From positions 1 to 22,648 of IMG/VR virus record IMGVR_UViG_3300045941_000429: 22,648 bases of DNA, one strand, 5' to 3'. The stretch is from a virus. The notes beneath the pieces were generated by a model. It worked only from the letters and a program-made list of their open reading frames with translations, was not told the origin of the DNA and ran no database searches. The position numbers and the translations under genes are program-made. Positions 1,054 through 22,403 of this stretch are shown piece after piece. Positions within the stretch are counted from its first letter, which is position 1, and every line of letters starts with the position of its first letter.

Positions 1054-2247
1054 TTATCCTTTGTACCTGACGTTGAGGGCGTTACCGTCTGCCAGAAGTT
1101 CAAGATATCCTGAGTTAATCCCGGCGGTGATTGCTTCTTCGAACTTCTGCCAGGACATCATATGCCGGAAGTTGCGATAGAGGTCGATCTTCGTCATAGA
1201 CTTGTCGGAAGCAGCTTGTACATAACGGAAGATTTGCTCGACCTCGATCTGATCCTCCTTTGTGTGGACGGCTCGGAAGACCCGAGGCAAATTCGCCCCA
1301 ATCTCCTCCACGAGGATTGTAGCGTGCTCCAGGTCCTCTTGGGTTATCAGCAGCTCATCTCGTTGCGAGGCGGCGATGACCATAGCCAGCTTGTGTGAGT
1401 GACATTGGGTACGCGCGGCGAAGCCTGACTCGTCGGAAGAGATTTGCTGCTCGACCGAATGCTTGTTGTACCAGGCGGAGCCCCATTCCTCCGCTGCTGG
1501 AGTTAAGACATATTCACCTTTGATGGAGGAGATTTGAGCAAGGTCCTCGATTAGACTGGTCCGCAGGGCATGATAGTCTTTCGCATTGCTCTCCATCATC
1601 TTCCTGGGATACGCGACGATCTTACGCTTGGCGTCACCGAAAACGAAGAGACAGCGAGAGGTGAAGCCTCCGCCCACCAGGGAGCGAGGGAAATTCTGAG
1701 CTAACCAGGAAGGTGTGGTACAGGCGATAATGTTGAGCCAGGGATTGATAACCATGTCCTCGCCCTGGGTTTTGGTGGCCTTTGTCCATGCGCCGTCCTT
1801 CGAGTCCCATAAGTCTACCAGCAGATCTACCATTGCTCTGTCAGAAGGGTCCATGAAGGTGCCGAGCTCAGATGCGGAGAAAGTTAGGCAGCACATTGGA
1901 TCGAAGGAACCATCGGGCTGGACCACATCCACTCGGGCATTCTCCAGAGCCGATGGGAGTTTCTGCCAAGTGAGGGCGTTCGGGCCGAGCGGGATCTCGA
2001 GCTCGACCAGAAGCGAAATTCCGACGTTGGCTGTCGTTGACTTAGCTATTATTCCTGGTGGCGCTACGAGAATGATGTAGAAGTTAGGTGACCAGCGATA
2101 ATGGATCTGGTCGAAACGGACCTTTCTGCGCAGGGCGCCAGCGATGGTAGAGACAGCGGTCCAGAAATGGAACTGGTCGGGCGCCTCCAGATAGGAGGTA
2201 TACTCCATGTACGCTTTGATCCAGTCGACATGATGACGTCGAGACAT
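1054..2247 (-). CDS. DUF3987-type phage replicative helicase/ATPase
   Basis: Predicted RecA/AAA-type ATPase of 397 residues from the ATG at 2247. Visible motifs are a Walker A-like APPGIIAKST at about residues 62-71, an acidic strand LTFSASELG near 121-129 that could be Walker B, a sensor-like strand NIIACTTP near 172-179, and an arginine-finger-like GGGFTSR near 192-198. The order matches DUF3987-type proteins, which act as primase-associated helicases in phages and mobile elements. It follows the DNA polymerase gene by 55 bases, so a replisome role is natural. An upstream GTG at 2283 would add 12 residues, but it lies inside a repeated motif (AATACGTGGTTCGAC at 2265-2279) and has no ribosome site. 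The ATG has none either, so start confidence is moderate. Confidence 0.72.
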   Translation of the reverse strand: MSRRHHVDWIKAYMEYTSYLEAPDQFHFWTAVSTIAGALRRKVRFDQIHYRWSPNFYIILVAPPGIIAKSTTANVGISLLVELEIPLGPNALTWQKLPSALENARVDVVQPDGSFDPMCCLTFSASELGTFMDPSDRAMVDLLVDLWDSKDGAWTKATKTQGEDMVINPWLNIIACTTPSWLAQNFPRSLVGGGFTSRCLFVFGDAKRKIVAYPRKMMESNAKDYHALRTSLIEDLAQISSIKGEYVLTPAAEEWGSAWYNKHSVEQQISSDESGFAARTQCHSHKLAMVIAASQRDELLITQEDLEHATILVEEIGANLPRVFRAVHTKEDQIEVEQIFRYVQAASDKSMTKIDLYRNFRHMMSWQKFEEAITAGINSGYLELLADGNALNVRYKG

Positions 2248-2264
2248 TAGGTTCAGGCCGAGAC

Positions 2265-2283
2265 AATACGTGGTTCGACCCAC
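2265..2283 (+). promoter_or_regulatory. intergenic motif copy 1, AATACGTGGTTCGAC
   Basis: This is the first of three copies of AATRCGTGGTTCGAC in the window; the others are at 14115-14129 (- strand) and 18187-18201 (+ strand). Here the segment GTGGTTCGACCCAC (2270-2283) is nearly palindromic around TCGA. It lies in the 55-base gap between the polymerase stop and the preferred helicase start. Operator, partition-type site or processing site are all possible. Confidence 0.4.
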
Positions 2284-2302: not shown

Positions 2303-4732
2303 TCATTCTTTGCACTCCCCCCATGATAGCTTGCTTCTCTTCAAGCTGAATGGAATAATGAGGGGATCATCGGGGTAGGGAAGAACAATCTGCGAGGCAG
2401 CCGTAATCTTGGGCAGAACTTCGTCAACCTGCTCGATACGAGCCTGCATCAATAGGCTGTCATGCACCTGCAACATCAACTGAACTTCCTGCCGTAGCTG
2501 GCGCCACACGTTCAGGAGGATCTTGTTGGTGAGGATGGCAATGGTGGATTGGGGAACCCAGGCGAGCCCGTGGGTATAGAAGCCCCTCTCGAGGACTGGG
2601 TAGCGAAAGCCGAAGATGTTCTCGAGGATGCCGATCTGGGTCCGGTTCCCCTCGGCACAAACTTGAGCGATCTTCCAGTGCCAACTTCCCTTTCGGGTGA
2701 CTGGTCCGATGGCGGGAGACATCTCGAAAATCTTACGAAGTAAGAGGTCAGCCTCATGGACTGTACGGCCGATCCGGTTAGCGAGGCCCTCGGCTGTTAC
2801 TCCATAGTGACCGGCATGTCGCGCGCGCTTTGAGAGAGGGCGGGAAAGTTTTAGTTCCCTTCCTGTTTCCTCATGAATGTCAATGCCTTCTCGGAAGAGA
2901 GCCTTCAGCCAGGGATCGTTGGCTTCCCAGGCGACGACCCTAGCGTCAGCTCCCTCGAGGTCTCCTTCGATGAACTCGCAATCTTCGTCAGGGATGAACA
3001 TGTCACGGAGGTTCGGAAGGCCTCGGGCCATCGGCTTGGCCTCCTTGTCCTCGCCCTCTGAGATGTTCATCAGCTGGAAGCCGAAGCCGAATGCATCCTC
3101 CTTAGCCGAGAACCGGAAAGTCTTTGTACCGTCAATGCGATAGGAGCAACGGGCTCTTCCGTCCTCCGCAATGTCCTTCACCAAGACGTTAGCTGTGATG
3201 GTTTTGGCCGAGCGATAGATCTGGATGCGTTCAATGAGGGATCTGACCAGCGGCTCCCTCTCCTTGATCTTCTCCAGCGCCTCGTCATTCACGGTAAGTC
3301 GAGTTCGCCGAGAACCGTCTGCTTCCTTCACCTTCGTGGTGACGGGACGAATGCCGAGGTCATTGTAGAAGAATGTCTGAAGCTGTTGTGGAGAGTTCGG
3401 ATTAAGGGGATGGCTACAGATGAAATCAATCTCCTCCTTCAACGTGGCAGTGTGGACTCGGAACTCTTTCAGCAGTCGATCCTTCCGCTCGAGGTCAATC
3501 CGAACTCCCCTCAGCATCATGAAGAGGACGGGCTCGAAGAGGTCCTGAAGGAATTGGTTCTGCTCCGTCAGTCCGACCTGCTTCGTAATGTCTTCGAGGG
3601 TCTTCCCAATCTCATCTGTCCGCGAGACGTCCTCAGCATTGTAGTTCCACAGCTGAGTCTCTGACATGGAGGAGTCCCATTCCTTCCCCTCCACTTTCCA
3701 GAACCGAGGCTGCTGGCAGTAGAGAGTTCCCTGGAACTCGAGTCGGTTCCTCATATTGGGATTGGGCCAGAGGCAGTGATGATTGATAATGGTGTCGTGG
3801 CGGACACGAGGAACGAAGCCCCAAATCTTCGCTGTATACTGGCAATCGTAGAGAAGGTTCTGTCCGCGGATGCGGGCATTAGGATGGGTAGAGATCTCGC
3901 GTAGGCGCAGGACGATTGAAAGCTCGACCTCCGGCGGCCAATACGAATGATCGCCTTCTATGACCATGAAGGGGATGGTGAGGACGCGCTCTTGAGTTCC
4001 AATTCCACAGCAAGCAATCTGGCCGCCACGGGTTTCGAGGTCCAAGGTGACGAACTCGCCCCGTTCCGACCGCAGAAACATCTCGTCGAGGAACGACATC
4101 GTCTGCTCGTATGTGGGCTGGAGATAGAACTTGGCCGGTCTGTGGATCAGCTCAGAGGAGAGGGACTCATGCAGGGCACGGGACAGATCGTGCTTCACGA
4201 TTGAGCGATCTTGCCATGCATACTGCATGATGTAGGAGGAATGGAAGGTGGGAATAACTTTGTAGTGTCGATCTCGGATCTTCGGATAGAAGATGTTACC
4301 GCGGAGGTCCGAGAGCATATGGTTCTTCTTGGGCGGCTCGCCGGTGAGAGCCCAGTAAGCAGTCCTACCCATCGCCACGATGCAGTTCGGTTGCACCCGC
4401 TCGACCTCATCATGCAGATCATGCAGGTGTTGTATCATGTTCGGCTTAACATAGCCGTTCATGAAGGTAGGCCAACCCTCTCGCTGCCCATGAGTCTTGA
4501 TGAAGGTGACGAATTGGGAGATGTTATTATTGTAGGGTTGGTAGCGGAAGGCGTTGGAGATCCTGATGTCTGCCCGATTAATTCCACACTCGCCGAACAT
4601 CAAGTCCAAGTGATATCCTGCTGGCCCGACAAAGGGCTTTCCTCGATCGTTCTCTTCTGCACCTGGGGCTTCCCCAATGAGCATCAAGTTGGCGGGAACC
4701 GGACCGTCACCAGGAACATATCGGGTACTCAT
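2303..4732 (-). CDS. uracil-DNA glycosylase - family A DNA polymerase fusion
   Basis: This 809-residue protein has three domains in order. Residues about 1-190 are a family 4/5-like uracil-DNA glycosylase: GEAPGAEEN..GKPFVGPAG at 20-39 and HSSY at 164-167. The N-terminal CxxC expected for the Fe-S cluster of family 4 enzymes is not seen. Residues about 225-390 are a 3'-5' exonuclease with DLE at 231-233, N292/D296, and Y364-D368. The rest is a family A polymerase with motif A at D591 (DLEGADARVV), motif B at 635-650 and motif C VHDS at 756-759. Motif B is unusual: Lys and His stand where R754 and K758 of E. coli Pol I would align, Tyr replaces F762, and the helix is shortened. The start has AAGG six bases upstream and overlaps the preceding stop as ATGA. 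It is the replicative polymerase; the fused UDG may remove or sense uracil. Confidence 0.93.
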   Translation of the reverse strand: MSTRYVPGDGPVPANLMLIGEAPGAEENDRGKPFVGPAGYHLDLMFGECGINRADIRISNAFRYQPYNNNISQFVTFIKTHGQREGWPTFMNGYVKPNMIQHLHDLHDEVERVQPNCIVAMGRTAYWALTGEPPKKNHMLSDLRGNIFYPKIRDRHYKVIPTFHSSYIMQYAWQDRSIVKHDLSRALHESLSSELIHRPAKFYLQPTYEQTMSFLDEMFLRSERGEFVTLDLETRGGQIACCGIGTQERVLTIPFMVIEGDHSYWPPEVELSIVLRLREISTHPNARIRGQNLLYDCQYTAKIWGFVPRVRHDTIINHHCLWPNPNMRNRLEFQGTLYCQQPRFWKVEGKEWDSSMSETQLWNYNAEDVSRTDEIGKTLEDITKQVGLTEQNQFLQDLFEPVLFMMLRGVRIDLERKDRLLKEFRVHTATLKEEIDFICSHPLNPNSPQQLQTFFYNDLGIRPVTTKVKEADGSRRTRLTVNDEALEKIKEREPLVRSLIERIQIYRSAKTITANVLVKDIAEDGRARCSYRIDGTKTFRFSAKEDAFGFGFQLMNISEGEDKEAKPMARGLPNLRDMFIPDEDCEFIEGDLEGADARVVAWEANDPWLKALFREGIDIHEETGRELKLSRPLSKRARHAGHYGVTAEGLANRIGRTVHEADLLLRKIFEMSPAIGPVTRKGSWHWKIAQVCAEGNRTQIGILENIFGFRYPVLERGFYTHGLAWVPQSTIAILTNKILLNVWRQLRQEVQLMLQVHDSLLMQARIEQVDEVLPKITAASQIVLPYPDDPLIIPFSLKRSKLSWGECKE

Positions 4733-4953
4733 TTCTTCGCCTTCTCTTGTGCGCTCTCCTCCGGCGTGATGTCCTGAATACTCTCCTCGACTTGTTTCTG
4801 CTCCTCGAGCCGAGCATTTAGTACCCTGATCTCAAGATCCCTTTGTGCTGCGAGCGCCTTGGCCAGGGCAGCCTGTCTGAGGGCCAAGGCTAGATCCTGG
4901 GAGAGGATGTCGAACGCTGCCTGCATGAGTTCGAACTGGTCAGGCCTTGTCAT
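4729..4953 (-). CDS. small coiled-coil protein
   Basis: This 74-residue predicted protein consists almost entirely of charged and alanine-rich helix. A leucine/alanine heptad-like stretch spans about residues 12-55, and the tail is acidic then basic. GGAG lies seven bases before the ATG. The start overlaps the end of the methyltransferase gene by 14 bases, and the stop overlaps the polymerase start as ATGA, so it is translationally coupled on both sides. No family was recognised. A small helical adaptor for the polymerase or methyltransferase is possible, but this rests on position alone. Confidence 0.6.
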   Translation of the reverse strand: MTRPDQFELMQAAFDILSQDLALALRQAALAKALAAQRDLEIRVLNARLEEQKQVEESIQDITPEESAQEKAKK

Positions 4954-6229
4954 CTACTAGCTCCATCTCCATTTCAACGAGTCGCTTCTTAGCGTACTGG
5001 ATTGCCAGCTCGGAATTGTCCACCCCGATGGCAGTGAGATCGAACATCTTAGCCGAGGGGAAGATCGGACCCGAGCCGCAAAAAGGGTCGCACACCACGG
5101 AGATACCGGGAGTGGCTGATCGCTCGAGAAGGTCTGTGAAGAGCGAGACTGGCTTGGCTGCAGCGTAGGTCACTTTGGTCTCAATCGGGTGGACGAGCAC
5201 GTCGGATAGACCAGTTCGCACTAAACGCATCTCGCCCTTGATGGCGTAGAGGATACATTCGTACCGGCGAGATGGCCCGTGGTCGATTTCGGCAGAATGT
5301 CCTCCGTTCTTCACCCAGATGAGAGGAACATTCCACACCCTCCATCCGAGGCTGTCGAAGACAGGGACGTGGTCCATGAACCTGCGAATGTCACAGAACA
5401 TATAGAGGTGGGCTTCAGGAGCCGTTGCGTAGGTTGCTGCTTCAGCAAACCTCCGGATAAGCCCCTTCACTTGTGTCCAGTTATCATTGTATTCATGCCG
5501 ATGTCTGGTATCGCCGTCGATCTTGTGGGCCGAGATGCCGTAGGGCGGATCGGTGAGGATGATGTCGAAGCGACCAGTCTGTGTGAGCAAGTACTCAATC
5601 GCATCCTGTTGATGTAGCTCGTGCTTGATGTTGGGAACCAGCTGAGAGGTGATGGCTTGAGCAAACTCTCTGCCGAGCTGGTCGGCAATCATACGCTTAG
5701 CTTGCCGAAGGGAGGGAGCTTTAGCAATGTTCTCGTTCTGCTTGATGATCTGGTCGATTTCCAAAGCTTCCCTGATGGTAGCAGTTCTAGTGTTATCAAT
5801 CCCGATCTCTTCCGCAATAGCGGTGAGGGTCTTGCCCTGGCTGAGGCGGAGCCGAGCGAGCCTGGCCCTGGCTGCCACCTGATCTTGCCAAGGTAAATCA
5901 GCCCTTCTGATGTTCTCATCCAGCTCCGCCTCGAGGACGAGGTCCTCGGACATCTCGGCCAGGTCTGTGATAGGGAGGAAGCCCAGGGGAACCTCGAGCC
6001 CGTTACAGAGGATCCTCTTTCCTGGCTGCTCCATGTAGATCTTCGTGATGGCCTTGAGCCGAGTCTCACCGGCGACCAGATGAGGAAGGTCGTCCTTCCA
6101 CCTGATCACAATGGGATGGAGGAGACCGAGGAGAAGGATGGACTCGGCGAGGTCGGAGACATTCTCCTCCATGTGTACCTTGCGGATGCGTTCGCCGACC
6201 TGGATCCTGTCAACGTGAATGAACTGCAT
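4940..6229 (-). CDS. ParB-like domain fused to DNA methyltransferase (probably N6-adenine)
   Basis: This 429-residue fusion starts with a ParB/Srx-like N-terminal domain (about 1-110: HVDRIQVGERIR, then LHPIVIRW and LVAGETRLKA). A helix-turn-helix-like stretch follows near 133-158 (TLTAIAEEIGID). The C-terminal half is an amino-methyltransferase with catalytic DPPYG at 227-231 ahead of the SAM-binding DPFCGSGP at 380-387, the order typical of beta-class enzymes. DPPY is usual for adenine N6 methylation. Such fusions are known in phages and conjugative elements. No restriction endonuclease lies beside it, so it is probably an orphan methylase for self-protection or for regulating phage sites. 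Whether the ParB part uses CTP cannot be judged. The gene lies five bases from its upstream neighbour. Confidence 0.9.
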   Translation of the reverse strand: MQFIHVDRIQVGERIRKVHMEENVSDLAESILLLGLLHPIVIRWKDDLPHLVAGETRLKAITKIYMEQPGKRILCNGLEVPLGFLPITDLAEMSEDLVLEAELDENIRRADLPWQDQVAARARLARLRLSQGKTLTAIAEEIGIDNTRTATIREALEIDQIIKQNENIAKAPSLRQAKRMIADQLGREFAQAITSQLVPNIKHELHQQDAIEYLLTQTGRFDIILTDPPYGISAHKIDGDTRHRHEYNDNWTQVKGLIRRFAEAATYATAPEAHLYMFCDIRRFMDHVPVFDSLGWRVWNVPLIWVKNGGHSAEIDHGPSRRYECILYAIKGEMRLVRTGLSDVLVHPIETKVTYAAAKPVSLFTDLLERSATPGISVVCDPFCGSGPIFPSAKMFDLTAIGVDNSELAIQYAKKRLVEMEMELVDDKA

Positions 6230-7910: not shown

Positions 7911-8233
7911 GGAGAGAGTTCCCTTGCGAGAAGGTTAAGCTCACGGATTAAGAGTAGGCGAGTCAAGAGGATCTTCCTATCCTCCACCCAGAGGCTGCCA
8001 TCTCCATGCCGCTCGCATCGACGGTAGATTGTTTGCCAGGAGCAGACAATGGCCTCGGGAGAGGCAGGACAGAACTTGACCTTGGCCCAGATATCGCCAC
8101 ACGTAGGACAGAAGAATGCGAGAGAGTGAGCGGCTGGTCTCTTCCCCAGGAGCCATGTCTGTGGATGCTCCTGCCAGGAGTTCACGTTACCGTGCAGCTC
8201 CCAGACTTGGGTGAATGGGAGGGAAGGGGTCAT
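7766..8233 (-). CDS. zinc-ribbon protein, long overlap with the next gene
   Basis: This 155-residue frame starts at an ATG that overlaps the previous stop (ATGA), so translation is probably coupled. The N-terminal two-thirds contains a metal-binding pattern FCPTCGD, then a lone Cys and CERHG further on, typical of phage zinc ribbons. The last roughly 48 residues are encoded inside the next gene in another frame and are rich in Ser/Pro, as expected for a shadow sequence, so only the first part may matter. The function is unknown; it lies in the middle of the recombination set. Confidence 0.6.
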   Translation of the reverse strand: MTPSLPFTQVWELHGNVNSWQEHPQTWLLGKRPAAHSLAFFCPTCGDIWAKVKFCPASPEAIVCSWQTIYRRCERHGDGSLWVEDRKILLTRLLLIRELNLLARELSPCHHSLDPRLSSPATPEPARPIVSEPWSTQESNPVCYSSTNLKQFLPT

Positions 8234-8751
8234 TGCTTGGGCGGCGTCCACATGATGTCGTAGCCTATTGGGCCAGGAACGATGAGGTCTTGACAGTTGT
8301 TGATGACAAAGCGGACGTGGTTGATGCGAAGCTTCAGCTGTCGCCCGTGCAGCTCATGAGCCACGCATCGCATGAGCATTTTAGTGAGAACGTCGTCCAT
8401 CAAGATAGCATGCGGGATACGCTCCAAGAAATATTTGATGGGTTTGTCGAACTCCTTTTCAAGGTTGCGGAACAGAGCATCGAGCTTGTTAAAGGCTTCT
8501 TGCATACCCTTGCTCATGCCGAGGTCGACGTAGAAGACCTGCTTCACCAGATCGGAGGCTTGCCAGGCCCAGCCGCACTCCATCCCGAGCTTGCGCTCCT
8601 CTTCCAGCAGGTCATCCAAGTACCAGGTGTAGAAGCCATGCGAAGCAAATGGGGCCTCGCCTCGGAGCAGGCTGTCATAGACACAGAGGTGTAGGTAGGG
8701 GCGGTTGATCGGACTGCCGGTGTAGGGTGACTCGATCATCACGGTTTGCAT
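8230..8751 (-). CDS. DUF7768-like protein (nucleoside deoxyribosyltransferase-like fold)
   Basis: This 173-residue protein begins with IESPYTG. It goes on with a chain of small conserved-looking blocks: YDSLLRGEAPFASHGFYT, ERKLGMECGWAW, and a VFYVDLGMSKGM strand-loop. This order matches DUF7768/DUF4406-type proteins, which have a nucleoside 2-deoxyribosyltransferase-like fold and are frequent in phages. The real substrate is unknown; nucleotide metabolism or DNA modification are options. GGAG lies eight bases before the ATG. A GTG one codon upstream (8754) could also be used. The start overlaps the stop of the nuclease gene. Confidence 0.65.
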   Translation of the reverse strand: MQTVMIESPYTGSPINRPYLHLCVYDSLLRGEAPFASHGFYTWYLDDLLEEERKLGMECGWAWQASDLVKQVFYVDLGMSKGMQEAFNKLDALFRNLEKEFDKPIKYFLERIPHAILMDDVLTKMLMRCVAHELHGRQLKLRINHVRFVINNCQDLIVPGPIGYDIMWTPPKQ

Positions 8752-9632
8752 CACCAGTTCTCCATTGGTCTGACCTTGTCAGAGACAGCAAAGCCGTCGA
8801 TCTCTTCGGGGTTCTTGGCAAGGCACCTGCTGTAGTAGGGGCAGATAGAGTTGAATTGCGTGCAAGCGGTGCTGAAATCGTAGGGCCAATCATTCTCCTG
8901 GTAGGCTCGGACCAAATGCTTAACCTTGGAGACGGTGGAATTGTACCACCTCTCAATATGGAAATCCTTGTACCAAAGAGGTACCTCCGGCATGTCGAAG
9001 CCATCGTTGGTGCGGAAAGCTATGCCGCGGACGAAGGCAGCGAGGATCGGAAACCCGTGCTCCCTTCCTGCCCACACGTAGCCCATGAGCTGTCCCTTCA
9101 ACAGCATCTTCTGTGCCCAGCTGTCTCCTAGGTAAGACGTGGTCTTCTCGTCTACGATGAAGAGATGTTGAGGGGCGCCCTTGTTCCCGCCGATCATGTC
9201 ACACCGACCGGAATAGAGAATGGGCTGGCCAGTATCGGGGTGCGTAACGGGGAGAGGAAGAGCGAAGTCGAACTCCACCGTTGTCTGGCCGAGGATGAGA
9301 GGGATGGGGTCGGAGCCGAGAGGGAACCGCTGGAAGTATACATGGAGCGCGTCGATGGTGGAGAAGAGGTTCTTCTTCCCTCTGGTAATGTCCTCCTCGA
9401 TGTCCCAAGCTTTCAGCAGGTCCCTCAAGCCCTCGTTAATGGCAGCCTCCTCCGCTTTCCCGTTCATGAAGAAGGCGGTTCGAGTGCCAGCTAGACCCGC
9501 GGCGAAGGCAGCACCTGTGGTGAGGTGGACTGACTTGCCGACGGGTCTGATCCTGTCGATGTACTTCTGCCTGAACTTGATCAAGCAGAGAGCATCCTCG
9601 AGCTTGGAGTTGGAGATGGTTTCCGGAAACAT
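8751..9632 (-). CDS. RecB/Cas4-like PD-(D/E)XK nuclease
   Basis: This predicted exonuclease has 293 residues from MFPETIS. Motifs in order are a TGAAFAAG helix (about 39-46), GRCDMIG with D145, VDEKTT at 160-165 (D-x-K form of the (D/E)xK motif) and QLMGY at 181-185. Four cysteines (C16, then a C-x6-C-x5-C cluster near the C-terminus) fit the 4Fe-4S arrangement of Cas4/AddB-type nucleases. It would resect DNA ends to feed the Sak4/SSB pair. The open frame runs 58 codons further upstream, but that part overlaps a small gene with its own ribosome site, whose stop is four bases before this ATG, so the shorter form is preferred. Confidence 0.82.
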   Translation of the reverse strand: MFPETISNSKLEDALCLIKFRQKYIDRIRPVGKSVHLTTGAAFAAGLAGTRTAFFMNGKAEEAAINEGLRDLLKAWDIEEDITRGKKNLFSTIDALHVYFQRFPLGSDPIPLILGQTTVEFDFALPLPVTHPDTGQPILYSGRCDMIGGNKGAPQHLFIVDEKTTSYLGDSWAQKMLLKGQLMGYVWAGREHGFPILAAFVRGIAFRTNDGFDMPEVPLWYKDFHIERWYNSTVSKVKHLVRAYQENDWPYDFSTACTQFNSICPYYSRCLAKNPEEIDGFAVSDKVRPMENW

Positions 9633-9636
9633 CGAG

Positions 9637-9849
9637 CTATTCCGGAATGAGGTCGGCAAGATTGATCGCACGAGAAGAGCTGTACTTGCGCTTCTCCGAG
9701 CCCTTCTGCGTGAGAGCGCTCGCTGCAGACCGGGCCAGACGAGCTGCGTCCAGGCCAGCGCGAAGCTCTTCGAGTGAGATCTCTTCCCCAGCGAGGATGC
9801 GCGCACGCAGCGACATCACCTCCTCGAACGGACTGAGTTGCTCAGGCAA
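9637..9849 (-). CDS. small phage protein with C-terminal LADLIPE tail
   Basis: This 70-residue protein starts at TTG, supported by AAGGAG seven bases upstream. Residues about 5-45 (LSPFEEVMSLRARILAGEEI, then a second charged helix) form a helical hairpin, followed by a Ser/Arg-rich linker and the C-terminus NLADLIPE. The same tail ends the proteins at 17207-17650 and 18579-19088. The gene overlaps the ribbon-helix-helix gene and precedes the RecB-like nuclease. The function is unknown; the tail suggests binding to a common partner. Confidence 0.72.
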   Translation of the reverse strand: MPEQLSPFEEVMSLRARILAGEEISLEELRAGLDAARLARSAASALTQKGSEKRKYSSSRAINLADLIPE

Positions 9850-10201
9850 GTGCTTTCTCCTTTTGACGAGCTCGGTTCATGTTCCTGAGGATGATCTCAA
9901 ACTCCTGACGGAGCATGCGGAGATCATCGGGGGACAGCTGCACATTGAGCTCGGGTATGTGCAGCTTGCCCGGGTAGACAAGTAGACGAGTGATGCCACG
10001 AGAGAGGACAGCGATGCGGGTCTCGATTACATCGCCGTCCTCTGGCTGGCAGAGCTGCTCTACGTACTTTTGCAGAGCTCTTGTAATGATCTCGGCCCGA
10101 GCGCCGTACTCAGGTCGGCCCACGAGCGGGTCGAAGGTGAGAAGTTCGACCTTTGCAGCGAGGTCAGATGGGACCGTGATGGTCCAGCGCTCGGTAGGCA
10201 C
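9842..10201 (-). CDS. ribbon-helix-helix-like DNA-binding protein
   Basis: This 119-residue protein starts at GTG (10201), chosen because AAGGAG lies seven bases upstream. An ATG at 10258 would add 19 basic residues but has no such site and would overlap the previous gene. The N-terminus (ERWTITVPSDLAAKVELL, then ARAEIITRALQKYVEQL) has the strand-helix-helix pattern of CopG/Arc-type proteins. The C-terminal half carries a helical stretch (LSPDDLRMLRQEFEIILRN). It is probably a transcriptional or replication regulator made with the recombination genes. Confidence 0.66.
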   Translation of the reverse strand: MPTERWTITVPSDLAAKVELLTFDPLVGRPEYGARAEIITRALQKYVEQLCQPEDGDVIETRIAVLSRGITRLLVYPGKLHIPELNVQLSPDDLRMLRQEFEIILRNMNRARQKEKALA

Positions 10202-10214
10202 CTTGGTTCTCCTT

Positions 10215-10394
10215 CTACCTTGGCCAGAGCGTGACCGGAGTAGCAACTCCGGCAACATTCAGGACGAGCAGGATGATGAAGATGAGCACACAGACAGCGG
10301 CGCCAAGGAGACACAGACGCTTCATCTGCTCATCGGCGATGAACCAGTGAACAGCTACGAAGATCACGAACCCGGCTAGCAGGAGACCGATCAT
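10215..10394 (-). CDS. two-helix small membrane protein
   Basis: This 59-residue protein has two hydrophobic segments (about residues 2-18 and 28-48) separated by a short charged loop ADEQMKR. GGAGG is placed seven bases before the ATG, one of the best ribosome sites in the window. It starts two bases after the stop of the secreted-protein gene. Size and topology would fit a holin-like or inner-membrane accessory protein, but no lysozyme gene is seen nearby and the gene lies in the replication arm. Function is left open. Confidence 0.66.
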   Translation of the reverse strand: MIGLLLAGFVIFVAVHWFIADEQMKRLCLLGAAVCVLIFIILLVLNVAGVATPVTLWPR

Positions 10395-14090: not shown

Positions 14091-14132
14091 GGGAATGCGT
14101 GGTCTTTTTCATGGGTCGAACCACGCATTCCC
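14091..14132. repeat. perfect 13-bp inverted repeat containing motif copy 2
   Basis: GGGAATGCGTGGT (14091-14103) pairs perfectly with ACCACGCATTCCC (14120-14132) across a 16-base loop. The right arm on the - strand is a copy of AATGCGTGGTTCGAC (14129-14115). It lies between two small genes. There is no U tract on either strand, so an operator, RNA processing site or leader hairpin is more likely than a simple terminator. Confidence 0.6.
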
Positions 14133-17206: not shown

Positions 17207-17650
17207 CTATTCCGGTATGAGGTCGGCTAGGTCCTTGTGCAAGGCTCGGCCTGTGACGCGGCTAACTCCTCTCATCCCGGGCCGCAGTTTGGTGATCTTC
17301 CCGTCGTCGAACTGTGGGCTCGGCCTAGCGCCTACCAACCGCTCGACTCTTTGGGGCGCTTTCCCGGTCTGAAGGACGTGCCAGAGCTGCTGCGGCGAGC
17401 AGACGAGGACCCGTTCGCCCGATTGCAGGATCACCGTCATGGAGTTTCTGCCTGGTATGACCTGCATCGGTTCGAGCGCTGGTTGCGAGGCTGAGGGCTC
17501 CATCTCGGCAAGGCATTCCTTCATGACTCGGAGCACATTCTGTTCGATCTCGTTGGAGGCTAGAGGCCCTGCCCGAGCGATGCGCTGCTTTAGGCCTGCT
17601 GCGTCAGCGAATGCCCACCCGCGAGCTGCGTCTTGAAAAGGAGTTATCAT
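17207..17650 (-). CDS. phage protein with C-terminal DLADLIPE tail
   Basis: This 147-residue protein starts at the ATG at 17650, chosen because GGAGGG lies seven bases upstream. It has a helical N-terminal half (FQDAARGWAFADAAGLKQRIARA), a short beta segment (MTVILQSGERVLVCSPQQL), then a basic linker and the end KDLADLIPE. The tail matches those at 9637-9849 and 18579-19088 in protein but differs at codon third positions. No enzyme motif is seen. It is one of the first genes of the leftward arm, so it is probably early expressed. Confidence 0.68.
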   Translation of the reverse strand: MITPFQDAARGWAFADAAGLKQRIARAGPLASNEIEQNVLRVMKECLAEMEPSASQPALEPMQVIPGRNSMTVILQSGERVLVCSPQQLWHVLQTGKAPQRVERLVGARPSPQFDDGKITKLRPGMRGVSRVTGRALHKDLADLIPE

Positions 17651-17772
17651 GAAGTCACCCTCCCGCCTCGGCACAGGCGTCGGTGCCGACATGTTGATGG
17701 AGTCGGCCAGAAGCCATGACCCATTTCACTGGCCAGGAAACCGCGATCCTTTGAGTGATCCCTTTCGTGCAT
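17647..17772 (-). CDS. possible 41-residue leader protein
   Basis: The frame MHERDHSKDRGFLASEMGHG continues to a Cys/Arg-rich end and stops in TGA that overlaps the next ATG (17650). GGAG lies seven bases before the ATG; an ATG two codons upstream is also available. The overlap and ribosome site match the style of the rest of the arm, but the composition is not clearly that of a folded protein. Confidence 0.4.
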   Translation of the reverse strand: MHERDHSKDRGFLASEMGHGFWPTPSTCRHRRLCRGGRVTS

Positions 17773-17785
17773 TGTCATTCTCCAT

Positions 17786-17811
17786 CCTCAACCGAGCACT
17801 TCGTGCTCAGG
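17786..17811 (-). repeat. hairpin element, copy E (GAGCAC variant)
   Basis: GAGCAC pairs with GTGCTC across a three-base loop, followed on the - strand by the conserved CGGTTGAGG. Unlike most copies it precedes a gene rather than following a clear one. It lies in the leader of the leftward arm. Confidence 0.55.
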
Positions 17812-17898
17812 CGTGTGGCGTTGGGAAAGCATGAAGCATCTCCGTTTGCTTATTGCCGAAGGCAAAGCGATGTTATCACGTGTTGCCGCATGGGAATA

Positions 17899-17915
17899 TG
17901 CGACATTTTGTCGCA
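17899..17915. promoter_or_regulatory. operator-like palindrome TGCGACA-TTT-TGTCGCA, copy 1
   Basis: Perfect 7-bp arms are separated by three bases. A second copy with the same arms and spacing is at 19091-19107. On the - strand weak -35-like TTGGGC and -10-like CATATT elements flank it, so it could be an operator for the leftward arm. The promoter itself is not convincing. Confidence 0.55.
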
Positions 17916-17928
17916 CCATGCCCAATTT

Positions 17929-17995
17929 CCCCTACATGTTCCCTATGTTTCCCTAATGTCCCCTAATATCACCCTAAAGTCCCCTGTGTCCCTAT
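17929..17995 (+). repeat. helically phased CCCTA array
   Basis: CCCTA begins at 17930, 17941, 17951, 17961, 17972 and 17990, with a degenerate CCCTG at 17982. Steps are 11, 10, 10, 11, 10 and 8 bases, close to one DNA turn. Spacer sequences differ, so only the core and the period are conserved. Such phasing puts all cores on one face of the helix, as in iteron or bent-DNA loci. Confidence 0.68.
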
Positions 17996-18020
17996 GTCGA
18001 TCGATTTTGGGTCCCCATCT

Positions 18021-18095
18021 CGGACCTTATCTCACCCTATCTTACAATACCTATATGTATAATTTTTTTTTTAAGGTAAGGGGGGGTAAGGTCCG
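18021..18095. repeat. 9-bp inverted repeat flanking a T10 tract
   Basis: CGGACCTTA (18021-18029) and TAAGGTCCG (18087-18095) are perfect inverses centred near 18058. Between them lie an AT-rich stretch (ACAATACCTATATGTATAA), T10 (18063-18072) and the first G run. An AT-rich stretch between inverted arms is a typical DNA-unwinding layout. Confidence 0.6.
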
Positions 18096-18109
18096 GGGGG
18101 TGAGGGGGG
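18063..18109 (+). other. T10 tract followed by G7, G6 and G6 runs
   Basis: T10 at 18063-18072, G7 at 18080-18086, G6 at 18095-18100 and G6 at 18104-18109 are separated by short linkers. The + strand could form a G-quadruplex. Homopolymer length should be read cautiously, as sequencing can miscount it. Confidence 0.6.
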
Positions 18110-18126
18110 CGTAAAATGGAAAATCA

Positions 18127-18171
18127 TAGGAACAGAGGGGATATTAGGGTAACCATAGGGGATATTAGGGT
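18127..18171 (-). repeat. phased TAGGG array, opposite orientation
   Basis: TAGGG starts at 18145, 18156 and 18166, with degenerate TAGGA at 18127 and GAGGGG at 18135. Steps are about 9-11 bases. A 21-base unit GGGGATATTAGGGTAAC.. occurs twice in tandem. It is the inverse of the CCCTA array and lies at a similar distance from the centre near 18055. Confidence 0.62.
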
Positions 18172-18186
18172 AACACGATATGCGGC

Positions 18187-18201
18187 AATGCGTGGTTCGA
18201 C
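18187..18201 (+). promoter_or_regulatory. intergenic motif copy 3, AATGCGTGGTTCGAC
   Basis: This third copy of AATRCGTGGTTCGAC lies at the outer edge of the symmetric locus. It matches the 14115-14129 copy (- strand) over all 15 bases and the 2265-2279 copy with one change. Confidence 0.45.
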
Positions 18202-18240
18202 ATAGCTGCAACATCACGTATTCTACATTTCGGTAGGTTT

Positions 18241-18299
18241 ATTGTTGTTTTAGAGGTGGGGAAGTAGCTTTGTTGTTGTTTTGGGGATGGGGAGGGAGG
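18241..18299 (+). repeat. imperfect TTGTTGTTTT/G-run repeat with quadruplex potential
   Basis: Two units of TTGTTGTTTT followed by G-rich sequence are separated by about 30 bases. G runs occur at 18258-18261, 18283-18286, 18289-18292, 18294-18296 and 18298-18299, spaced closely enough for a G-quadruplex on the + strand. Confidence 0.5.
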
Positions 18300-18310
18300 T
18301 GCGGAAAAGA

Positions 18311-18339
18311 CCACGTATCGTTTGCCGGGCCATACGTGG
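18311..18339. repeat. 8-bp inverted repeat CCACGTAT/ATACGTGG
   Basis: CCACGTAT (18311-18318) and ATACGTGG (18332-18339) are perfect inverses with a 13-base loop. No U tract follows. An operator or structural role is possible. Confidence 0.5.
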
Positions 18340-18501
18340 CCGTGGGCGATGTCGGCGCCGATGGGCATGGTGGTGGCCGGAACCCGGCCGATCGCGTCCA
18401 CGGTGCCCGGTGGCCCGGCAATCGCCATTCGACCCGATCCCGGCCCCAAGAAGAAGAACGCGCGCGTGAGACAGAACCTAGCTCCATCCCGAAAATAATT
18501 C

Positions 18502-18530
18502 TTGACATGACATCTCGCTTATCGTATGGT
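18502..18530 (+). promoter_or_regulatory. sigma70-like promoter for the rightward arm
   Basis: TTGACA (18502-18507), a 17-base spacer, and TATGGT (18525-18530). The design closely matches the 13188-13216 promoter. Predicted start near 18537, about 40 bases before the ATG at 18579. Confidence 0.65.
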
Positions 18531-18540
18531 CCCGATGGTG

Positions 18541-18559
18541 ATCGGACATTGGGTCCGAT
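18541..18559 (+). promoter_or_regulatory. leader hairpin ATCGGAC/GTCCGAT
   Basis: Perfect 7-bp arms around a five-base loop sit at the predicted 5' end of the transcript, just after the promoter. The position fits a repressor site or an mRNA-protecting 5' hairpin. Confidence 0.5.
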
Positions 18560-18578
18560 CCGAAATCGGAATACCCAA

Positions 18579-19088
18579 ATGGCAACCCGTACCCGTCGCC
18601 TCTCGAAGGTGATCGACGCCAACGCCAGGTCTCTTACCCTGGTGTTCCTCGGCGAGAAGGACAGCGAAGGCAATCCGACCGTCAACGATACCCTGGTGTT
18701 CAGCCTCTCCGACTACCCCAAGGCCATTGTGACCCATCTTGCGCTTCACGGGCTTGGGCAGGTGCTCGGTGACGAAATCTCTGGCATCGGCGCCGATGGT
18801 GGCGATCCCGTTGAGATGGTCAAGGCCCGCAACGCGCCGCTCGTGAACGGCGACTGGTCGGCCGGCCGCGAGATCGATCGCTCCATCCTGGTCGAGGCCA
18901 CCATGGCAGTATTCGCCAAGGCCGGCGTGGTTCGCGAGCGGGCGAAGGTCGAGGCGTACATCAACGGGCTCGACGCCAAGGAGGTCGCGAAGTACCGCCG
19001 GCGCCCTGACATCACCGTGGCCGTCGCCGCAATCCGCGAGGCTCGCGGCCAGACCGGCGATGACTTGGGAGCCCTGATCCCGGAGTAA
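18579..19088 (+). CDS. conserved phage protein with LIPE tail, first gene of the packaging arm
   Basis: This 169-residue protein runs from MATRTRRLSKVIDANA, supported by GGA eight bases upstream and a promoter 50 bases before it. The segment TLVFSLSDYPKAIVTHLALHGLGQVLGDEISG resembles a family of phage proteins with an L-x-L-HGL-x-Q-x2-GD signature, often found near terminase genes. Helices follow (SILVEATMAVFAKAG, VAVAAIREAR), and the protein ends DDLGALIPE. The function in that family is unknown to me. Codon use is GC-rich compared with the genes after it. A terminator-like hairpin follows, so it is probably transcribed on its own and strongly. Confidence 0.75.
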   Translation: MATRTRRLSKVIDANARSLTLVFLGEKDSEGNPTVNDTLVFSLSDYPKAIVTHLALHGLGQVLGDEISGIGADGGDPVEMVKARNAPLVNGDWSAGREIDRSILVEATMAVFAKAGVVRERAKVEAYINGLDAKEVAKYRRRPDITVAVAAIREARGQTGDDLGALIPE

Positions 19089-19827: not shown

Positions 19828-20448
19828 ATGCTACCCGGAGTGAAGGCAGTTCCCATAACGGCGACGGAGGGCAGACCGCTTTCCTCGCAGAAGGCGGTGA
19901 CATCGGTCACCTCGGTCGGCCGGCGCCATCACGAGATACTGACGTATGTCCTGGCCAATCCGCACAAGCCCATCACGGAGATAGCGCAAGCGCTCGGGTA
20001 CACCACGGTTTGGGTTCAGAGGGTGGTCAGGTCGGACATGTTTCAGCTGGAGCTCCGACAGCACCAAGAGGCCCACAGGGCCAGAGTCGTAGGGGCGATG
20101 GAAGAGAGGCTATACAGCGTTACCCATCGGATGCTGGAGGATATGGATAGGAGGTTCAAAGGCGGGCAGGCATCGGAGAAATTTGTACTGGGAGCAGCAC
20201 CCACGTTGCTCGGAGCAATCGGTTATGGCAGTCAGCATCGAGGAGAGGAGCCGCAACGGCATCTACATGTCCACGTCAACGGAGACCAGCTGGCCAGGGC
20301 AAGGGAACTCCAGCGAACCAGCTACGAGGCCAGTGACGTCCCATCAAAGCCTGCTGCTGACGAAGCTCAAACGGGTCCAGTTCCAGCGCTCGAAGCACCG
20401 GCCGCAGATGCCAACTGCGCCGAAGAGAATTCGTGGGAGGTTGTATGA
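19828..20448 (+). CDS. putative terminase small subunit
   Basis: This 206-residue protein has GGAGG six bases before the ATG. Residues about 33-75 (HHEILTYVLANPHKPITEIAQALGYTTVWVQRVV) form a helix-turn-helix as in DNA-recognising small terminases. A helical oligomerisation-like segment follows (EERLYSVTHRMLEDMDRRFK), then a flexible Pro/Ala-rich tail. Its place two genes before the large terminase supports the role: recognising packaging DNA and loading the motor. A transcriptional regulator cannot be excluded from the sequence alone. Confidence 0.75.
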   Translation: MLPGVKAVPITATEGRPLSSQKAVTSVTSVGRRHHEILTYVLANPHKPITEIAQALGYTTVWVQRVVRSDMFQLELRQHQEAHRARVVGAMEERLYSVTHRMLEDMDRRFKGGQASEKFVLGAAPTLLGAIGYGSQHRGEEPQRHLHVHVNGDQLARARELQRTSYEASDVPSKPAADEAQTGPVPALEAPAADANCAEENSWEVV

Positions 20449-20863
20449 AGAGCAGATTCTAGGGTGGCTCAAGCGAGGTCTCGGGGAAAGGGTGATAGAT
20501 GATGCAAGACTCAGATACGAAATGGCTGACGGAGAATCAGGTGCTCTGCATCCTGATGCAATCATCCTCTGTCAGCATTCACTTATCCTGGTTGAGATCA
20601 AACTCAATGTCAGTCTCAGGTCGTGGTGGCAGCTGCGGCATGTATACGGACCTCTGCTTCGCAAGGCAATGCCAGCTGCGCGAGTTCGAGACCTCATCAT
20701 TTCTGCCTACTACCCAGCAGCAGAGCTGCTCGATCAGCTACCGGAAGACCCCATCGCTGTGCGGAACCCGCTAGATGCAGGATTCACCGGGCTCAGCCTC
20801 ATCGTACTGGCAGAGGACAAACCCAGGACTGGCGGTCCTACAGGCCCTCTCGGCAGCACCTAA
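20408..20863 (+). CDS. PD-(D/E)XK nuclease-like protein
   Basis: This 151-residue protein runs from MPTAPKRIRGRLYEEQIL. Motifs read in order are an early Glu (YEEQ), HPDAIIL with the Asp, and LVEIKL as the ExK, followed by a WWQLRHVYG helix. This is the core of restriction-like nucleases such as VRR-Nuc or phage resolvases. The gene overlaps the small-terminase gene by 41 bases and lies before the large terminase, so it may trim or resolve DNA during packaging. The ribosome site is weak and the start uncertain; the frame remains open further upstream but there shadows the previous gene. Confidence 0.65.
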   Translation: MPTAPKRIRGRLYEEQILGWLKRGLGERVIDDARLRYEMADGESGALHPDAIILCQHSLILVEIKLNVSLRSWWQLRHVYGPLLRKAMPAARVRDLIISAYYPAAELLDQLPEDPIAVRNPLDAGFTGLSLIVLAEDKPRTGGPTGPLGST

Positions 20864-22403
20864 GCCAAGCGCCGAGGGCGCTCGGTTGAGCACAGGTCCT
20901 GACGCTCGGGAGGCTCGGACGAACCAGGTTGATGTTGAGGAGCTGGTCGAGCTGTGTGCCCTGAATCCGCAGCTATTCTGCACCACCTTCTTCCCCAAAA
21001 CCTTCAGACAGGACTTTCCGGTCTTCGACCAGGATGTTTGGAGGCTCCTCGAGTCGCACAAGTACCAATTCGTCGCCCTCAAAATGTTCAGAGGGTCAGC
21101 GAAGACAACCCGCTTACGCACCTTCACCCTCAAGAGGGCCGTGTACGGGATCTCGAGAACTTGTATTTTTGTCTCGGTTTCGCAGCGGCATAGTATTCAG
21201 TCGGTGAGGTGGATTAAGAAGCAGGTGGAGGAGAATGAACTGCTGCGCTCGGTCTATGGGGTAGAACCGGGGAGCAAGTGGACAGATGAGTGGATTGAGA
21301 TATACTCGAGGGCACTTCAGCAGTCTTGTGCTATAGTTGCCCTGGGAATTACTGGACAAACTCGAGGGTTGAATATAGATGATTACCGGCCTGACCTGAT
21401 TGTAGTAGATGATCCGTGCGATGAGGAGAACACTGCATCAGATGAGCAGAGAGAGAGGACGGAGGAAAGATTTTTCTCTGCGCTGGCCCAGAGCCTTGCG
21501 CCCAGGACAGAATGTCCCGAGGCTATGATGGTGCTGTCGCAAACGCCGTTCATTGATGGGGACCTCGTATCGCAGTGCGAGAAGGATCCGACCTGGGCAA
21601 ATAGGTCCTACGGTTGCTTTCTCCCCAACGGGGAAAGTAGCTGGCCCTCGAGGTTCCCCACAGAGACACTCCTGGCAGAGAAGCAAGCCCACGTTGCCAG
21701 AGGCCAGGTGATGCTCTGGATGCGGGAGAAAGAAGTTACCATCATTGCAGACGAGCTAATGGATTTCAAACCTTCGTGGGCGAGGTTTTGGGATAACCTA
21801 GATCCACAGGCTCAGCTCGTAACCTTCATCGGGATTGATCCGGTTCCGCCTCCATCGGGTAGGCAGATCGCCGAGATGTTCTCCAAGAAGGACTTCGAGG
21901 TACTGGCCGTGGTGGGCCTCTACCGCGGGATGTTCTTCGTGCTCGAGATCCAGAGGAACCGCGGGCACCAACCAGATTGGACGGAGAACACCTTCATTAA
22001 CCTGGTACAGAAGTGGAAGCCCACCTCCTGTAGAGTTGAGGCGAACAACTATCAGAGGACCCTACAGTATTTGCTCGAGCGGAAGATGCGGGAGACTAGG
22101 GTCTTCGTGCCGATTAACCCTGTAACGGAGATGAGGAAGAAGCGACACAGGATCGTGCAGACATTAGCGCAGGTAGCATCACAAGGCGCCTTCTACATGC
22201 ATGCGACGCAGGTGGAGCTGATTTCGCAATTCTCCCGATATCCTCTGGTCGATCATGATGATGATCTGGACGCGGTGGCGATGGCCGTGGAGGAAGGGCT
22301 GGAGTACTACAGGAAAGGGGTCGAGTGGGACGAGGATGGGAAGCTGCAGCTTTACCAACACGATCAGATGGACTGGTCCAGTGGCATTCAGACTGCACCG
22401 TAA
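20775..22403 (+). CDS. terL: terminase large subunit
   Basis: This 542-residue packaging motor has an ATPase domain with Walker A-like MFRGSAKT (104-111), Walker B LIVVDD (208-213) and a coupling motif LSQTP near 254-258. The nuclease domain has D355 (FIGIDP), E422 (VEANN) and DDDLDA (495-500). It drives DNA into the prohead and cuts the concatemer. The ATG at 20775 gives an 89-base overlap with the previous gene and a poorly conserved-looking first 50 residues. These are encoded through hairpin element F, so the ancestral start may lie further in, but no better ribosome-site/start pair is present. Confidence 0.92.
   Translation: MQDSPGSASSYWQRTNPGLAVLQALSAAPKPSAEGARLSTGPDAREARTNQVDVEELVELCALNPQLFCTTFFPKTFRQDFPVFDQDVWRLLESHKYQFVALKMFRGSAKTTRLRTFTLKRAVYGISRTCIFVSVSQRHSIQSVRWIKKQVEENELLRSVYGVEPGSKWTDEWIEIYSRALQQSCAIVALGITGQTRGLNIDDYRPDLIVVDDPCDEENTASDEQRERTEERFFSALAQSLAPRTECPEAMMVLSQTPFIDGDLVSQCEKDPTWANRSYGCFLPNGESSWPSRFPTETLLAEKQAHVARGQVMLWMREKEVTIIADELMDFKPSWARFWDNLDPQAQLVTFIGIDPVPPPSGRQIAEMFSKKDFEVLAVVGLYRGMFFVLEIQRNRGHQPDWTENTFINLVQKWKPTSCRVEANNYQRTLQYLLERKMRETRVFVPINPVTEMRKKRHRIVQTLAQVASQGAFYMHATQVELISQFSRYPLVDHDDDLDAVAMAVEEGLEYYRKGVEWDEDGKLQLYQHDQMDWSSGIQTAP
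20861..20895 (+). repeat. gene-end hairpin element, copy F
   Basis: The sequence is TAAGCCAAGCGCC, three loop bases, then GGCGCTCGGTTGAGC. AGCGCC pairs with GGCGCT, and the outer CTAAGCC pairs with GGTTGAG with one mismatch. It begins at the stop TAA of the nuclease gene and is also read within the large-terminase frame. Confidence 0.62.

Follow-up and report, generated by a model that had tools for sequence, protein, structure and literature searches.

The replication origin of phage lambda combines iterons with an A/T-rich part, and herpesvirus oriL has an A/T centre with inverted binding sites, UL29 and UL30 being the single-strand-binding protein and the polymerase. At the concatemer junction of phage T7, which passes through a hairpin intermediate, a palindrome beside the terminal repeat folds back and the repeat is copied before packaging. 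In parC of plasmid R1 the ribbon-helix-helix protein ParR occupies 11-bp repeats to either side of a promoter, and the hairpin telomere of phage N15 is resolved by a protelomerase. According to the available portions of the respective papers, simplexvirus oriL with its stem-loops is located between UL29 and UL30 (PMC7850993), the SPP1 origins consist of repeats and an A/T-rich opening element (PMC6316719), and a pacL-pacC-pacR arrangement cut in the middle is described for SF6/SPP1 (PMC4737164, PMC6316719). The available text on the SF6/SPP1 small-terminase ring, with helix-turn-helix motifs approximately one DNA turn apart, states that it is thought to permit DNA wrapping with contacts at about that spacing, and reports little specificity of the SF6 DNA-binding domain for repeats (PMC4737164). 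Origins made of repeats and A/T-rich sequence and the palindromic origins of herpesviruses are already known.

The locus presented here, a long degenerate palindrome centred on an A/T tract, resembles SPP1 oriL/oriR, as far as the available account goes, in having short repeated sites adjoining an A/T-rich opening element and in being present once or a few times per genome. It differs from the SPP1 and lambda origins in carrying repeats on both arms of one long palindrome with 10-11 bp phasing, in the homopolymer tract of its spacer and in a motif that is not conserved among relatives. The stem-loop palindrome is shared with oriL of the herpes simplex type, but virus and sequence are unrelated, the arms here are only ~75 % alike and the neighbouring protein R1 is a weakly predicted single-strand binder; the likeness is one of analogy only. 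Two sets of sites flanking a cut, as in the accessible descriptions of SPP1/SF6 pac, have a possible parallel in the mapped end of Caulobacter phage Kuura, which falls between the arrays; SPP1 pac, however, overlaps the small-terminase gene and serves headful packaging, whereas the element lies 0.7-6.0 kb upstream of the TerS-like gene (16 genomes) and Kuura has fixed direct repeats. The T7 junction has possible parallels in the T7-type large terminase and, in Kuura, in the palindrome just outside the terminal repeat. With parC the locus has in common two repeat clusters spaced one DNA turn apart, but here the clusters are inverted, not direct, and no ParM was found in a search whose control was also silent. 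In the literature searched, with subscription papers mostly outside it, there was no earlier description of the element, nor of an origin or packaging signal for these phages. The locus is probably the site where the phage begins to copy its DNA, with a part in cutting and packaging the DNA as the chief alternative.

Anatomy of the palindrome

The window, i.e. the whole stretch of 22,648 nt that was analysed, is a complete IMG/VR record (IMGVR_UViG_3300045941_000429), and G001, a record of 46,649 b from the same phage, spans its full length. The genes flanking the locus leave a gap at 17693-18578, in which an earlier note, made from the letters of the window, had described a symmetric locus. 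The symmetry is real, but the parts caught at that time belong to a larger palindrome with the best axis at 18060.5. The perfect 9-bp inverted repeat (CGGACCTTA at 18021-18029 and TAAGGTCCG at 18087-18095, axis 18058) was found as described, enclosing an A/T-rich spacer (whole feature 18021..18095) with T10 inside at 18063-18072, and so were CCCTA on the left (17930, 17941, 17951, 17961, 17972, 17990, 18035), TAGGG on the right (18145, 18156, 18166) and a copy of AATGCGTGGTTCGAC at the right edge (18187-18201). The supposed 17-bp palindrome at the left edge (17899-17915) is an inverted repeat, but not a perfect one, having a 7-bp stem and a 3-nt loop.

The entire degenerate palindrome, arms and A/T-rich centre together, occupies 17909..18202 (strand not applicable), as judged by arm alignment, register pairing and the hairpin z-score. 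An inverted repeat search gave ungapped 100-nt cores of the left arm at 17946..18045 and of the right arm at 18076..18175, which pair in register at 70 of 100 positions around 18060.5. Dinucleotide shuffles (n = 200) paired at 39.9 positions on average and 47 at most, and the best value among 124 tiles of the window was 46, the element's own tile excepted. When the axis was moved by 5 bp, equivalent to one repeat unit between the arms, pairing dropped from 70 to 47; the symmetry is therefore that of one register and not merely of two similar arrays. Gapped alignment lengthens the arms to approximately 17909-18043 and 18073-18202 (125 aligned positions, 74 %). Folding of single-stranded 17899-18215 gave one hairpin of -69.4 kcal/mol, in comparison to -36.5 ± 4.0 for 100 shuffles (z -8.15).

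The left array (17922..17999) comprises about eight decamer units with a consensus of about ATGTCCCCTA, their C-tracts starting at 17922, 17930, 17941, 17951, 17961, 17972, 17982 and 17990 (spacing 8-11 bp); TRF reported it in G001 with period 10 and 6.0 copies. The right array (18133..18174) is built of two 21-bp tandem copies with two inverted decamers in each, and the G-tracts of the four inverted units are at 18138, 18147, 18159 and 18168. The T10 tract is the sole A/T run of at least 8 in the 46,649-b record (position 21862 of oriented G001). To its right lies a G-rich tract of G7, G6 and G6 (18078..18111), the left side being C-rich on the same strand, and this C-to-G flip is the strongest in G001. 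A search of Rfam with the element and of phage records with the gap sequence gave no match.

Two tandem 31-bp copies, 81 % alike, are situated directly outside the right arm at 18233-18294 (repeat search; TRF in G001). AATGCGTGGTTCGAC has three matches in the window, at 2265-2279 (+), 14115-14129 (-) and 18187-18201 (+), two of them exact and one with one mismatch, where 0.02 would be expected at up to two mismatches. A further copy, at 32644 of oriented G001, has two mismatches to the 17-base version. All four copies are followed, approximately 10-20 bases downstream, by the near-complementary ACGTATTC or ACGCATTC, so that AATGCGTGGTTCGAC constitutes one arm of a small inverted repeat.

The element in related phages

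The large terminase was used as the query for relatives, since queries with R1 and the polymerase returned only copies from the same phage. It yielded 40 loci, and an alignment of 23 terminases yielded 80, many of them in common. Annotated relatives included MW202489, Microcystis phage Mel-JY34 (PP438425), Vibrio phage VS-ABTNL-3 (MF497422), Caulobacter phage Kuura (OQ067476), Desulfofustis phage OP947158, the PaP2/PaMx41 group and BK063670, the last recorded from Methanomicrobiales. Almagne is also tailed, but its genes form another set, a tape-measure protein among them, and it was set aside. L024 and L025 appear to be a single phage that entered the count two times, as do L136 and L137. Loci L151, L153 and L155, with a terminase and an A-run palindrome, were binned with Nitrospinota, Planctomycetota and Ignavibacteria, which are possible hints of hosts.

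The CCCTA and TAGGG letters pointed out in the earlier note proved specific to this phage. Conservation concerns the palindrome, its phasing and the A/T tract, while the letters turn over. In 10 of 13 records an A/T run of at least 9 occurs at a single site, and that site is the element; such a single main A/T site per genome speaks for an origin. No run of this length was present in G005, G007 and G018. The spacer run, T10 here, is 8-26 in most relatives, and C-rich and G-rich tracts together with repeats flank it there too.

Sharing of inverted 7-mers by the two flanks was above that of shuffles (p ≤ 0.008) in 14 of 16 genomes; G016 (p 0.12) and OP947158 (p 0.056) did not reach this level. 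Arm-to-arm alignments (31-186 bases, 69-81 % identity) were above all 100 shuffles in 17 of 20 cases. Among the 20, the centres of G007, PaP2, PaMx41, MW202554 and BK063670 had been picked in scans for inverted repeats or skew, and this selection favours their arm scores. G028 tied with its shuffles and PaP2 and Kuura fell short, Kuura with an alignment of 34 against a shuffle maximum of 36 (inverted 7-mer sharing p 0.002). G005, G018 (partial) and Tiera, in which no centre was located, were excluded from both counts; Tiera has a weak inverted-repeat centre at most. These three genomes and the three weak alignments weigh against the origin reading, whereas the conserved architecture of the majority supports it.

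A scan of 33 loci that had not been used in the definition provided a cleaner test, even though contigs ending before the element score as misses in it. It covered 24 of 46 new loci and nine earlier ones whose elements were unused, the contig starts of four of these nine having been inspected beforehand; nine new loci with less than ~1.1 kb upstream and 13 distant ones (L138-L150) were excluded. In 17 of the 33 loci, again in favour of an origin, a palindrome upstream scored higher than the best of the downstream controls (44), and all 17 carry an A/T run of at least 8 within 120 bp. Eleven of the 16 failing loci end within 5 kb upstream of the terminase, and among the loci with at least 5 kb upstream 14 of 19 exceeded the control maximum. 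Nothing above control was detected by the scan in L047, L108, L119 and L136/L137 in spite of at least 5 kb upstream; L108 has A26 close to its best centre. Part of what the earlier note named as refuting an origin, relatives that retain the replication genes and lack the arrays, was not cleanly seen with respect to the element, although it was not detected in these loci, nor was a centre located in G005, G018 (partial) and Tiera.

The two arms of one genome resembled each other more than any foreign arm in 30 of 33 phages (exceptions: Kuura and the related pair G028/L049). In the 66 arms of the same 33 phages, recurrence of 5-mers was strongest at lag 10 (z 21.3), followed by lag 11 (z 9.7) and lags 20-22 (z 7-10), and was also raised at lags 7-9, 12 and 25 (z 5.6-8.6). 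Since a phage entered this set of 33 only through a detected element or an A/T run marking its place, both statistics describe elements and not their frequency. A main period of 10 bp is compatible with proteins sitting on one face of the helix. Covariation of paired positions in related elements was also considered: 10 pairs changed on both sides, 18 on the left only, 14 on the right only and 71 not at all (Fisher p 0.03). Six of the ten double changes still paired, but four of the seven element pairs had no change, and the result was set aside, the changes being too few and dependent on the alignment.

Neighbouring genes and genomic position

The leftward arm encodes a primase-helicase, a UDG-polymerase, a ParB/methyltransferase, a Sak4-like protein and a nuclease-like protein labelled from its relatives. 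The primase-helicase (DUF3987/phrog_14296; 1054..2283, -) and the uracil-DNA glycosylase fused to a family A DNA polymerase (2303..4732, -) form the replication arm, and the primase and polymerase families are present in 23 of 23 genomes, BK063670 included, as an origin reading would have it. The ParB N-terminal domain fused to an N6/N4 DNA methylase (4940-6229, -) belongs to a family found in 17 of 23 genomes. The rightward arm encodes R1, a TerS-like protein (19828..20448, +; family in 21 of 23 genomes) and the large terminase (20775..22403, +; phrog_38; family in 22 of 23), which has a T7-type RNase H-like domain (PF22530). The assignment of the TerS-like protein as a small subunit follows from its position and from relatives annotated as small terminase, the copy in the window having no PHROG or Pfam match.

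An insertion or split frames break the polymerase match in 8 of the 14 relatives that have one (G015, G016, G018, G022, G025, G026, G028 and G031), for the most part close to residue 565 of the protein in the window. Within the interruption, G016 and G031 carry a homologue of the window protein 8230-8754 (DUF7768). The site looks like a hot spot for mobile insertions (intron, intein or similar).

Upstream of the large terminase, the element is found at a distance of 1.9-4.4 kb in 31 of 32 cases, usually 2-3.5 kb, and of 7.0 kb in MF497422. This proximity favours a packaging function, but the distances to the terminase and to the replication genes vary similarly and do not discriminate between the readings. 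The placement between two transcription arms, described by the earlier note, holds in the window and is not general. In Kuura the genes annotated to either side of the element both run leftward, with the divergent gap at another place, and in MW202489 it stands ~1.7 kb within the leftward arm. These gene orders and the orientation of R1 show that the element is not tied to the divergent promoter gap, an independence that agrees with an origin and speaks against an operator at which a repressor or activator on both arrays would set an early/late switch. Such an operator would suit the divergent arms of the window, the promoter-like site before R1 (TTGACA-17-TATGGT, 18502..18530, +; a consensus match only, with two found in the region versus 0.9 expected) and the candidate ribbon-helix-helix protein m138 (9842..10258, -), whose family is in 14 of 23 genomes. 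It would need neither the A/T tract nor arm pairing in a single register, and it is considered improbable.

m138 is a possible binder of the phased repeats, with the TerS-like protein as its rival. Its fold was read by eye from an alignment; there was no Pfam match and the AlphaFold model was too poor for use. A ribbon-helix-helix protein together with 10-11 bp repeats in two clusters would also suit a partition site of the parC type, stabilising an episomal state of the kind reported for phage Shea of the related PaP2 group, which persists as an unintegrated episome (PMC13348215). The m138 gene is, however, 3-10 kb from the element and not adjoining it, the actin-like partner (PF06406) had no match in 10 of 10 records, with control genomes likewise silent, and the plasmid collection contained no match to the primase, so partition is rated slightly lower still than an operator. 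Episomal persistence of Shea needs an origin in any case.

MW202489 is informative with respect to packaging. It retains the replication genes, R1, the TerS-like protein and the palindrome, which scores 78 where shuffles reach 32 at most, but its large terminase is outside the family profile, belonging to phrog_979/phrog_2 and not to phrog_38. The other-type terminase (Terminase_6N) is encoded at 1108-2592 of this record (locus L090), which among annotated phages gives the best primase and polymerase matches to the phage studied here. The terminase is a module swap. Retention of the element with the replication genes and a different terminase type supports an origin; with the TerS-like protein kept, the case weakens a packaging function without removing it.

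R1 (18579..19088, +), a protein of 169 aa with the tail GDDLGALIPE, has a predicted b-b-b-a N-terminal domain and a helical C-terminal part. Of 33 elements, 28 have a member of the R1 family, often two paralogues, no farther than 1.3 kb away. They belong to 13 of the 16 genomes of the first set in which a centre was located (R1 had no match in the remaining three) and to 15 of 17 new loci, where the distance is at most 0.9 kb. Among these 28, the closest R1 on the side of the terminase is directed toward the element in 19 and away from it in 9, and other small genes may intervene. The linkage argues for an origin. Against it, the family is in 14 of 23 genomes, with no R1 found in Kuura, PaP2, PaMx41, G007, G018 (partial), OP947158, Tiera, MW202554 and BK063670, nor in L025 and L115 among the new loci.

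In the structural model of R1 (pLDDT 86, pTM 0.54) the N-terminal part consists of three strands with one long helix, and its neighbours include Pur-alpha and PC4 folds and the PC4 homologue of phage T5, with weak Z values of 3.0-3.8. Rows for HAD hydrolases rank above these, all at Z < 5, and the C-terminal part matches only helical parts of HAD hydrolases and similar proteins. Foldseek gave nothing at E < 0.001 in the PDB and four unnamed proteins at this threshold in a viral library. R1 thus weakly resembles single-strand-binding folds in its predicted structure, a likeness that favours an origin while the low scores count against it. The acidic-hydrophobic tails add to the former: the last 12 residues carry a net charge of -2 or lower in 42 of 50 R1 proteins, and a hydrophobic residue is among the final four in 44 of 50. 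E. coli SSB and T7 gp2.5 end in the same manner. In the window, two other proteins (9637-9849, -, and 17207-17692, -) end in LADLIPE, comparable to LGALIPE of R1 (18579-19088, +), and are otherwise different, which suggests a common partner-binding tail.

Physical ends and the probable start of DNA copying

Kuura has a 606 bp direct terminal repeat according to PhageTerm, as given in the available text of its description (PMC9959647). The Kuura record has the start of this repeat at 43208 and the A12 tract at 43141-43152, so the mapped left end is 55 bp from the A-tract, between the arrays, a proximity with a coincidence of ~1 % by simple arithmetic. An origin does not predict this end inside the element. 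It would be explained by a packaging or terminal-repeat processing site, of which two variants can be envisaged. In the first, the small terminase ring would wrap the phased repeats of both arms, in keeping with the one-turn spacing of its motifs in the accessible SF6/SPP1 account, and the large terminase, here with its T7-type nuclease domain, would cut between them. In the second, which is T7-like, the palindrome beside the terminal repeat would fold back and the repeat would be copied before packaging.

Contigs of different phages from several metagenomes (L026, L036, L038, G015 and G026) stop in or next to the element's centre, a number of them in an A-run or G-run, and the PaP2 and PaMx41 records, as deposited, also begin there; the records of TF17 and Neko both start at a gene edge and are uninformative. 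The contig stops could be true ends, as packaging would have it, or merely difficult assembly, since homopolymers and hairpins assemble badly and may alone explain them. The nearly symmetric arms give no packaging direction, and the SF6 domain has little repeat specificity in the part of the report available (PMC4737164). Kuura is the sole mapped case and its arm alignment is not significant. Overlap with the small-terminase gene, as in an SPP1-type pac, was not found in the 16 genomes, and the T7-type large terminase that a T7-like junction would use is not in every element-bearing phage, MW202489 being the exception. A packaging role is regarded as the serious rival of an origin, though less likely than it.

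The palindrome, its hairpin fold and contig ends at the centre could also suit a hairpin telomere resolved by a protelomerase, as in N15. The arms are, however, far from identical, Kuura has direct terminal repeats in the accessible description (PMC9959647), and in 8 of 13 records the last 117-143 bases recur at the start. Protelomerase (PF16684) was absent from 10 of 10 records, which may be incomplete, with the control positive in 1 of 14 control genomes. This is the least credible of the readings.

A GC-skew switch at the locus, proposed in the earlier note as a check of origin function, was not seen: 1-kb bins are positive on either side of it, with no sign change. In 12 of 16 relatives an extreme of the detrended skew is no more than 3 kb from the element, but with inconsistent sign (minimum in 7, maximum in 5), and skew leaves the question undecided. 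DnaA boxes occur within 400 bp of 3 of 20 elements versus ~0.8 expected, all three in more distant relatives (MW202554, BK063670 and OP947158), with a perfect box in MW202554 at about 8411 of the reverse complement; there is none within this distance of the element studied here. In a Mantel test the similarity of motifs did not significantly follow that of the candidate binders R1, m138 or the TerS helix-turn-helix, whereas sak reached p 0.03. The skew, the scarcity of DnaA boxes and the lack of an identified initiator all count against an origin.

The earlier note had considered the locus most simply a replication origin and named partition or packaging sites as alternatives. On conservation, anatomy and gene context a palindromic replication origin is still the best single reading, with a probability of about 0.5, although the skew is mixed and packaging has gained support. 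The short-repeat arrays on both arms and the A/T-rich opening element beside them fit such an origin. A phage-coded initiator would bind the helically phased decamers of both arms, hold the arms symmetrically and strain the A/T-rich spacer until it opens. The replicative primase-helicase and the UDG-polymerase would then be loaded at the opened spacer, probably bidirectionally, and the R1 proteins may hold the opened strands and recruit partners.

A more specific proposal, doubtful at present, is that the element represents an undescribed class of origin: a long, fast-changing palindrome with an A-tract spacer and arms evolving in concert, two paralogous single-strand-binding-like proteins alongside, and in at least one member also the packaging end. 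If this is true, copying and packaging would begin at the same palindrome, in a layout like that of herpesvirus oriL within tailed phages. The phages concerned share a family A polymerase (UDG-fused here), the DUF3987 primase-helicase and mostly one terminase family. In them the element can be recognised by a rule, as a degenerate palindrome on a single A/T tract, upstream of the large terminase and beside R1, and this makes an origin or packaging function directly testable in cultured Kuura, Mel-JY34, VS-ABTNL-3 and Shea. A cis site that keeps its architecture while its letters turn over raises the question of how the two arms stay matched.
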